Made by a program: the position numbers and the translations under genes. A DNA stretch of 64,000 nucleotides from Mesostigma viride (Eukaryota; Streptophyta; Mesostigmatophyceae; Mesostigmatales; Mesostigmataceae). A model generated the notes under the pieces. The model was not told where the DNA came from. It was given only the letters and a program-made list of their open reading frames with translations, and did not search any database. Shown piece after piece: positions 22,960 to 36,925 of the stretch (the stretch's first letter is position 1; each line of letters begins with the position of its first letter). Location of the stretch: positions 62,001 to 126,000 of the forward strand of contig RPFO01001264.1 of the NCBI GenBank assembly GCA_009746045.1, given 5' to 3'.

Positions 22960-25900
22960 GTATGAAGCAAGTTAAGAGCAATCCACATGCTGAGATCAAG
23001 TCACATGTCGTGTAAATCTTGAATGGATTATGGTGGCGAGGAGTGGCGAACGATAACAATAGCGATAGTAGAACGGATGTTAAAGGTAATGATAGTAGTA
23101 TTTATAATTAATTAGCGTGCAGGTGATAAACTTTATTCATCTCGTGAATACTGTGTGTGAGTCAAGTCCGTTTGCACCCTCTTGTTTTCACTGAAGGACT
23201 TCCGTCCTTTTTCCTCCCCCCCCCCCGCCCCCCTTCTCCCACATTATGCTTCCTCCACTGCCACCCCGTAGTAGTTTTATGCATTCAACCCATGTGACGC
23301 GTGTTGGCATATGATAGGTCCCAACCCGACTGGTCCCATCCCCACCTGGCTGTTGTGCCGCCGCTTTTCTTTCAGGAACCGCTTTTTGCTGTGTTGCCTT
23401 TCTTCCTCTCGCCCCCCCCTGCCCTCCGGACCTGCCACCATGTTTTTTTGAGTGTACTGATTGTCTCCTTGGTACTAGTAGGTGAAAGGGTTTAAATATA
23501 GTGTCCCCTCCCGTTTGCCTTGAACACCCCCTGCGGATGAAACCCATCTCCTGCCTCTCACACCCTGTGCCCTTCGCACCCCATGGCCCCCCCACCCCTT
23601 GCTTCTCCGGTTCCCCCCCCCCCCTTCTGCTCCGTTCACTTCTCCCCGCAACAGAAGCAGAAGGTCGTGGACCCTCGGCGCGAGCTGGCGGCGCGCATGC
23701 GGGAGGACCGCGAGAAGATCGTCAAGTTCTGGACGCAGCTCGTGCGCAAGGACATCCCCAAGGCGCAGCGCTCCTTCTTCGCCGCGTCCAAGAAGCAGCT
23801 CACCGACGCCAAGCGCACCGCGGAGCTCTGCCAGCGAGAGGTGGGCAGATTGTTTTGTGTAAGGGGGGGGGGGGGGGCCTTACACAAAGGTCCTCCCCCC
23901 CGGGTTGTGATGGCAGTGTCTGCATACAGTGTGCACGTCTGCATGTGTCGTGGGCTGTGTGTTGCAACAAAGTGATTCATTTTCCCCATAGCCCACATAC
24001 GAGTTGTAAGGGGGATGGGTTGAGTTTGCAATGATTTATGGGGTGGGTACAATGGTTTTTTCCTTGGGCCCATGCAGGTGTTTTCTGATAAAGTTTTTGC
24101 TTCTCGTCGGCTTGTGTGGATTAATACATGCCCTCTCTACATATGGGATCTGTAAATGTAATCTACCCACCCCTTGCCTTGTGCAGCTGAGGAGACGCAG
24201 CCAGCTTTCTATTTGCATTCACTCTTTATATTAATGAATGGGAGTGATATCTGTGTGTATCCTCCCACCATCCACCAGGTGCGAAGCCGCAGCCAGCGCT
24301 CGCTCAAGGCGGTGCGCGGCGCGCCCGTGCGCATGAAGAAGCTTCTGCGGGACCTGCAAGTGCTGTGGAAGAAGATGGACAAGGAGCAGGTATGGGGACC
24401 GCCGGTGACAAGTGATGGCAGTAAGGATGGCCGGGCGGTGGAAGAAGATGGGCAAGGCGTGTGTGGGTGGGCGGTGGTAGGCAGGGAGTGCCCCCCTGTC
24501 TGAGAATCGTTCATGTCCATGTGTGCACTGTGTCCTGTACCTACCATATTGCTCTGATATTGTGTCCAGTACCATATTGCTGTATGGGCATTTTGTTGTG
24601 CCATGTGCCGTGTGATAGTATTTTTATAGTAGTATTTTTATCGTGATTACTGTCATTATAAGTGCCCTTTGCAGTGCGCCGGACGGAGGTTTCAAACGAG
24701 CTGTTTATTAAAATTTTATCTTGTGGTTCGCTTCAACCAATTGTGGTCATCTCTATGTACTGCGCGCCAGGTGCCGAGCGCCAGAGCGAGATGAAAAGGG
24801 CGCTTGTCCTTCCTTTTCTATTCCTGTGCCCATCCTTTTCTCCTCCTTCGCCCATCCCTTTCTCCTCCTGTGCCCATCCCTTTCTCCTCCTGTGCCCATT
24901 CCGTGGTCGCCTATTTTTGCCATGCGCCGGATCGTGATGAAGAAGACGCCCTCATCCCGTAGTTAACTTGTGTTTAAGTCCAACTAATTATGGCTGTATC
25001 TCTACGTCATGCACCCGGGCCGCAGATCGAGATGAAGAAGACGCGCGAGAAGGAGGCGTACGAACAGCGCAAGCGCGAGGAGGAGCTGAGGGAGGCCCGC
25101 CGCCAGCAGCAGCGCCTCAACTTCCTGCTCACCCAGACAGAGCTGTACACCCACTTCATGCAGAACAAGAACAAGGACGCCGCCGCGCTGGCGTCCGCCA
25201 CCCCCGGCACTGCTGCCGGTGCCGCTGCCTCGGCCAGTAAGCTGGGCGGGGCTGCCTCGGATGCCGCGGGAGGGCCTGCCCGGGAAGGTGCCGGTGCTGG
25301 TGCTAATGGAGACGGTGTTGGGGTTGGTGACGGCGGCCAGAATGAGGAGATGGACGCGGAGGATGCGGCCTACGCGGCGCAGCTGCAAGAGGAGGCGATG
25401 CGGGCGGCCAAGGACGCGGCAGCCACGCAGCTGCGGAAGACGAGCGCGTACGACGAGGAGTCGCGGCGGCTGAGGGACCACGCGGGGCAGCACCAGCGGG
25501 ACAAGGAGAGGGAGCGGAGGGAAGGGGAGGAGGACGAGGAGGACGAGGAGGAGGATGAAGAAGAGGAGGATGGGGAGCAGAAGGAGAGGGCGGGGGGGGC
25601 GGTGGCGGCGGTGGCAGGGGAGGGCGCAAACGGCGCGGCGGAGGAGGGGTTGAATCTGCTGAACCCGTGAGTCTTGGTGGAGTCTGCATAACGTTTCCAT
25701 GGTTTGTGGGTGAAGGCCTGGATTTTCAATGTGTGTCTTTACTGCCTTCGTCGCTCAGGTCTCGATATTTATGCTCCCCAGACTCATGTGCCCGAACTAG
25801 AGGAAGAGGAATCACCTGGCAATGCCGAGTGCAGCCCGTATACCCCAAAGACTATCTTTTGAAAATGTTTCTATTCACCTCCAAAAAAATGATTTCCATG

Positions 25901-36925: not shown

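Follow-up and report, generated by a model that had tools for sequence, protein, structure and literature searches.

The window analysed here, a stretch of 64,000 nucleotides, carries on its forward strand a gene for an INO80 ATPase (24279..35480), which was modelled with 14 exons whose joins all fall in one open frame. The exons lie at 24279-24389, 25026-25666, 26016-26124, 26446-26526, 27033-27331, 27852-28013 and 28626-28908 in the first half of the gene, and at 29478-29621, 30254-31363, 32084-32191, 32991-33085, 33783-33939, 34600-34737 and 35421-35480 in the second. INO80 was the best match of the model in the PDB, where the structures closest to its 262-aa ATPase part are those of INO80. 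Exons are numbered as in an earlier note on this DNA, so that exon 3 is 24279-24389 and exon 16 is 35421-35480. Elsewhere, the window holds very long simple arrays, (CAACGCGAC)x197 at 12665-14442 and (CTCC)x232 at 61746-62651, and, between 43350 and 50924, 8-base repeats (CACCGTTG, GGTGCAAC and variants of these) that lie in clusters, several of them inside longer repeats of 143-344 bases.

The earlier note had claimed that the introns of this gene contain copies of the neighbouring exon edges, referred to here as echoes. Thirteen introns were tested with a 50-nt exon-only query against the query's own intron and 200 dinucleotide shuffles. An echo of the exon end was detected in the downstream intron in 8/13 cases (after exons 3, 6, 7, 8, 9, 13, 14 and 15), with z of 4.0-10.6 and at most 1/200 shuffles scoring equally; in these eight introns the matches exceed those in shuffled sequence, the comparison which that note had proposed. 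All copies described below are on the forward strand. The end of exon 3 (source 24362-24396) recurs at 24435..24467 (28/35, z 9.1), that of exon 6 (26507-26531) at 26584..26608 together with the donor GTGAG (24/25, z 7.4), that of exon 7 (27300-27340) at 27394..27433 (35/41, z 10.5), where the final 24 exon bases are identical and little intron homology is seen past the donor, and that of exon 8 (27988-28023) at 28091..28126 (29/36, z 4.5). Exon 9 has three such copies, at 28934..28957 (source 28890-28913, 19/24), 29025..29060 (28882-28917, 30/36, z 5.9) and 29147..29163 (28893-28909, 15/17). Further copies lie at 33166..33198 for exon 13 (33062-33094, 26/33, z 4.0, 1/200 shuffles), an echo missing from the list in the earlier note, and at 34949..35009 for exon 15 (34689-34752, 44/64, z 7.1). 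The copy of the end of exon 14 (33904-33954) at 33999..34049 (42/51, z 10.6; intron part z 4.4-4.5) is an older tandem, its homology running on into the intron beyond the donor. The end of exon 16 (35466-35480) is repeated in full at 35556..35570 (15/15, z 5.5-6.1), and the end of exon 12 (source near 32191) has a weak echo at 32255..32280, which gave z 0.4 with the exon-only query and z 4.0 with a junction-spanning one. A 52-nt tandem array at 31354..31630 (5.3 copies by TRF, 96%) starts in the last 9-10 bases of exon 11 and repeats exon end and donor in every unit; since only 9-10 exon bases are present per 52-nt unit, it was missed by the exon-only query (z 0.6) and reached z 12.5 with the junction-spanning query.

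Echoes of exon starts in the upstream intron are strong in 2/13 introns, those before exons 4 and 15. The start of exon 4 has copies at 24926..24949 (source 25019-25044, 23/26, z 9.4) and 24774..24803 (25015-25044, 23/30), and that of exon 15 has four, at 34111..34155 (34596-34640, 32/45), 34207..34253 with a CCAG acceptor (34595-34639, 40/47, z 12.6), 34308..34360 with an acceptor (34590-34640, 38/53) and 34471..34522 (34596-34640, 39/52). Support is moderate for a copy of the start of exon 3 (24280-24297) upstream at 24188..24205 (15/18, z 4.7-4.8), and weak for those of exon 11 (30239-30268) at 30064..30093 (23/30) and 30163-30184 (19/22), with an exon-only z of 2.3. Three further weak exon-start matches (z 2.6-3.1), in introns 26125-26445, 28014-28625 and 34738-35420, were absent from the earlier note. 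With reverse-complemented queries 12/13 scores fell below z 2, all exon ends compared with the neighbouring upstream intron and exon starts compared with the next intron in INO80 gave z of at most 2.4, as did the reverse-complement control save for one score at z 4.0. Outside the 13 introns, 22960-23654 is echo-free, 23841-24278 lacks a clear 5' echo and 35481-36173 lacks a 3' echo. Altogether, 11 introns have at least moderate support, the same count that had been given as a minimum. Among the echoes listed previously, those of the ends of exons 3, 6, 7, 8, 9, 11, 14, 15 and 16 and of the starts of exons 3, 4 and 15 are upheld, whereas the end of exon 12 and the start of exon 11 are weak; that each copy brings a stretch of adjoining intron with it is not general, homology past the donor often being undetectable.

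The wider occurrence of echoes was assessed in the 440-Mb assembly (2243 contigs), in which 26 further gene copies encoding CCT and cpn60 chaperonins, myosins and kinesins were modelled using Pfam anchors and a genome-trained gene finder; unanchored exons of less than 45 bases and exons beyond the anchored span were dropped. Leaving out the duplicates CCT_C1641 and KIN_C622, as well as KIN_C1579 (no intron of 120-5000 bases), the 27 modelled copies gave 24 genes with 159 usable introns (120-5000 bases), INO80 included, a sample of conserved genes picked for their anchors and not a random draw. On INO80, the gene finder recovered 13/14 exons exactly, split the largest in three and added three short false exons; its codon model was built without INO80 exons, and the test is not independent because the splice-site and non-coding models were derived from INO80. 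At z > 5, an exon-end echo was present in 40/159 introns and an exon-start echo in 13/159 across the 24 genes (Fisher p 7e-5 for the difference), compared with 1/159 and 1/159 for the reverse complement, 0/159 and 0/159 for other introns, and 2/132 and 2/134 for windows inside exons. Echoes are therefore real and general in the sampled genes of this genome, as the earlier note had supposed they might be, and the copies lie in direct orientation in the adjacent intron, as it had described. Their frequency varies by gene, from 6/11 in CCT_C1407 and 6/13 in INO80 (stricter count) to 0/9 in CCT_C1568 (heterogeneity p 0.03). These tests and those below were exploratory, with thresholds chosen by the authors, and several used the same echoes.

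Some of the genes occur on more than one contig. The two copies of one CCT gene, on C1641 and C887 (L022, L023), differ at 63/2353 intron sites (2.7%) and at 1/239 third positions; this haplotype pair hints that introns change faster than third positions, a single pair being too little to settle the intron rate. One of their introns measures 4087 bases in one copy and 912 in the other, so that an insertion of about 3.2 kb probably took place in one of them. A kinesin gene on C622 and C2 (L051, L052) is identical over 2648 intron bases and its flanks differ at 258/1379 aligned sites, which is possibly a duplicated piece of the assembly. Intact rbcL (L053-L055) was found as two inverted copies on each of C602 and C900 and as one copy on C996, with interrupted matches on C996 and C879; its best PDB match was 1gk8, an entry for Chlamydomonas Rubisco, so that the host of this genome is probably a green alga.

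The position of repeats was examined in a scan of 158 introns (115.8 kb) that included up to 60 bases of the exon edges. Among the direct repeats, 38 begin in an exon end, 9 reach the start of the next exon and 86 are wholly intronic, windows inside introns likewise having local copies. Contiguous tandems are mostly interior (56/65), and spaced repeats are divided between the 5' edge (30), the 3' edge (8) and the interior (30, including 11 from one intron). Edge repeats are denser at the 5' than at the 3' end (4.8 vs 0.89 loci per kb). Interior loci amount to 0.54 per kb overall. Their density is 1.27 per kb over the first 100 nt and 0.96 over the second, ranges from 0.28 to 0.62 in the four bins after that and is 0.51 in the last 100 nt; interior tandem arrays have the shorter units (median 33.5 against 103.5). 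The sources of spaced repeats at the 5' edge have their start at -60 to -8, and for the 21 nearer copies the standard deviation of the copy start (12) is smaller than that of the source-to-copy distance (19). As an observation on base composition, introns of more than 400 bases in the genes tested show a strong strand asymmetry, with a G fraction of 0.43 over the first 20 bases and a C fraction of 0.45 over the final 20, and poly-C runs precede some acceptors (e.g. window 27004-27028).

The exon identity of echoes spans 100% to about 70%, in agreement with the view that copying is long-standing. Exon and copy differ at 0.10, 0.11 and 0.18 of sites at codon positions 1, 2 and 3, respectively (31/43 echoes, arrays and poorly anchored cases being left out), and 31/71 single-change codons are synonymous, against an expected 24.7%. 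Equal change at positions 1 and 2 points to copies without coding constraint, the overall pattern being the one expected when the copy changes without restraint and the exon may vary at its synonymous sites. Distances between source and copy show no preference for multiples of three, remainders of 1, 2 and 0 occurring 22, 12 and 9 times, respectively, and the idea that the copies are in-frame alternative exons was rejected on these two grounds. Scored over six intronic bases, copied donors have a mean of 2.32, close to the 2.33 of source donors mutated at 15% and between the 4.90 of real donors and the -7.91 of random sites. Tests of donor identity, donor score and codons found no splice-site conservation in the copies beyond that of their surroundings. 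Given the lack of coding constraint and a decay of the donors that keeps pace with that of the exon part, the copies look, from their sequence, mostly like fossils.

The echoes probably stem from tandem duplications, short and local, that extend across a splice junction and come on top of ordinary intronic tandem duplication. A unit would comprise the last ~10-60 exon bases together with, typically, 45-80 bases from the beginning of the intron; at the acceptor the arrangement would be mirrored. Such events would be one end of a general habit of intronic tandem duplication, whose density is higher towards the 5' ends of introns. Provided that the outer splice site still worked, the mRNA would be unchanged, the added DNA intronic and the intron longer, the copy then decaying as intron sequence and the exon being kept by selection; this order of events, and the harmlessness of the duplication, we infer. 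Because the copy would decay freely while selection holds the exon, the exonic half would remain visible longest. Exonic homology would fade at about the rate of one lineage and intronic homology at that of two, with indels in addition, so that old echoes would resemble bare exon ends stopping at the splice site. As for the underlying DNA lesion, slippage may be responsible, or else staggered breaks that are filled in and then rejoined by end joining.

Several young echoes are plain tandems. Echoes were marked as full tandems when at least 60% of the spacer showed intron homology, a lenient mark which 17% of shuffled comparisons pass; it was passed by 6/8 echoes with exon identity of at least 0.95 and by 3/6, 2/5 and 4/12 in the lower classes (15/31 overall). 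Only four of the six young echoes with the mark count as plain tandems (CCT_C1702 intron 4, KIN_C2189 intron 1, KIN_C1613 intron 1 and KIN_C1502 intron 1), because ungapped intron homology was not significant in MYO_C1106 intron 4 and INO80 intron 3 (z 1.8 and 2.6); clear recent tandems outside the eight youngest are Cpn_C1468 intron 2, CCT_C887 intron 2 and INO80 intron 8. Summed over age bins, tandems decaying equally in both halves would give ~23.6/31 with the mark, compared with the 15 observed. The expectation is ~19/31 for introns changing twice as fast and 13/31 for three times, so that the data would accord with an intron rate 2-3 times that of the copy. In an earlier ungapped test intron homology was kept in 6/26 echoes vs 18.2 expected, and identity pooled over 26 echoes was ~0.83 as far as the junction, falling close to the random level from about +12 onwards. 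The ratio of exon to intron divergence (CCT_C1407 intron 5, 0.91 vs 0.77; INO80 intron 11, 0.81 vs 0.66) was discarded as support, since a shuffled intron already gives 0.64-0.65. Together, junction-spanning tandem duplication and one-sided decay probably explain most echoes, and leave unexplained the young copies ending near the splice site, a minority that shows no intron homology, the preference for starts at +44..+83 and the threefold 5' excess. Local tandem duplication, named in the earlier note as the simplest cause, is thus the best supported one in view of the controls and the young tandems, although intron homology falls short of its prediction and it accounts neither for the excess of echoes at the 5' side nor for the position at which copies tend to start; the growth of introns also proposed there is borne out in that junction-spanning duplications add to it.

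A rival reading, and a rather unlikely one, is a junction-aware process in which the exon edge and a few splice-site bases would be copied and inserted ~60 nt into the intron, for example by repair synthesis that takes nascent RNA as its template, or that stops at the border of an R-loop or of splicing factors bound there. In its favour, 21/30 spaced repeats at the 5' edge have homology ending within 0..+9, 7/8 at the 3' edge have homology that begins -1..-13 before the acceptor, 5' copies start at +44..+83 in 20/30, and 5/14 echoes with identity of at least 0.90 are without full intron homology (CCT_C1407 introns 2 and 9, CCT_C1702 intron 1, INO80 intron 4 and KIN_C2 intron 1), one of which, CCT_C1407 intron 2, has 30/30 exon bases copied with no intron homology detected. 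However, KIN_C2 intron 1 retains 25 intron bases, KIN_C1502 intron 1, which appeared exon-limited without gaps, is a tandem with a small indel, and a sharp end at the donor is partly yielded by one-sided constraint. Exon-limited copying as the main mechanism had rested on ungapped homology or on a narrow age range in simulations, and was reduced to a rival since gapped comparison and broader ages showed that tandems account for half or more of the youngest echoes. That splice junctions themselves direct the copying, through a recurrent lesion 50-75 nt past 5' splice sites from which repair synthesis copies the exon edge and tends to halt at the splice site, is a doubtful conjecture.

Selection on the echo sites, whether as decoy or backup splice sites or as the ends of nested mini-introns removed in a second splicing step, would suit the 16/43 echo donors at or above the median of real donors (26/43 are at or above the 5th percentile), the AG directly preceding the donor in 23/43 copies, and the distances of more than 70 nt in 28/30 spaced 5' repeats, the shortest modelled intron being 80 nt. 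This explanation is nevertheless improbable: the copied donor G was kept in 22/26 cases and the T in 20/26, no better than the ~0.83 of the exon part, with 22 GT and 3 GC among 31 donor dinucleotides, donor strength equals that expected from plain decay, codon constraint is absent, and distances are indifferent to multiples of three. Chance similarity, low complexity or assembly error might be suspected in repeat-rich introns with G-rich starts and in an assembly with two duplicate contig pairs, but is very hard to credit given shuffle, strand, other-intron and inner-exon controls near zero, copies that are mostly diverged, unlike assembly errors, and a CCT echo present on two contigs despite 2.7% intron divergence. 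A G-rich intron start was rejected as a cause (G fraction 0.345 with and 0.350 without an echo), as was a shared mobile spacer, only 2/351 pairs of 27 spacers having reached a local score of 30.

The closest known systems among the matches listed include the tandem genomic duplication model of intron gain, in which duplication of an exonic unit containing AGGT makes a new intron (PMC3443670), and the potato RdRp gene, where tandem duplication over an intron-exon boundary produced one recent new intron, dated by relatives (PMC4974935). The echoes share with the AGGT model a short direct duplication carrying splice signals, such that a segment between two AG|GT sites could be an intron; the difference is that the echo unit lies across a junction already in place and makes the intron there longer, about a quarter of the tested introns being affected. 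No new intron bounded by both copies was seen, the copy typically lying ~60 nt into a longer intron and not at its far end. As in the potato case, the unit crosses an existing splice junction and inherits its signals from the parent junction, whereas that report describes a single case and dozens of echoes are found here, with no new exon seen. Fill-in at breaks with 3' overhangs followed by end joining gives small tandem duplications (PMC8355091) and is, by analogy, a candidate lesion for the echoes; it was shown at Cas9-induced breaks in cultured cells. Repeated sequence tied to splice sites is also known from introners (PMC9860276) and stwintrons (PMC8469720); introners are one family in many genes, whereas each echo derives from its own exon, with spacers mostly unrelated between introns. 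None of the matches listed, among which most subscription journals fall outside the scope, reports exon-edge copies as a general intron feature of a genome. The statement in the earlier note that no named class fits is accordingly only partly right, tandem genomic duplication being a close known type of mutation.

If a quarter of the introns in a genome carry their own exon end and donor, junction-spanning duplication would be no rarity and would steadily supply competing splice sites and lengthen introns. Measured against the exon, which stays fixed, every echo also serves as an internal clock of neutral decay in introns. The 5' bias and the preference of copies for positions near +60 make a link of splicing or transcription to local duplication testable. 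Should junction-directed copying prove true, there would be a tie between co-transcriptional splicing and the spectrum of mutations in introns, and such splicing would have left a fossil record in them.
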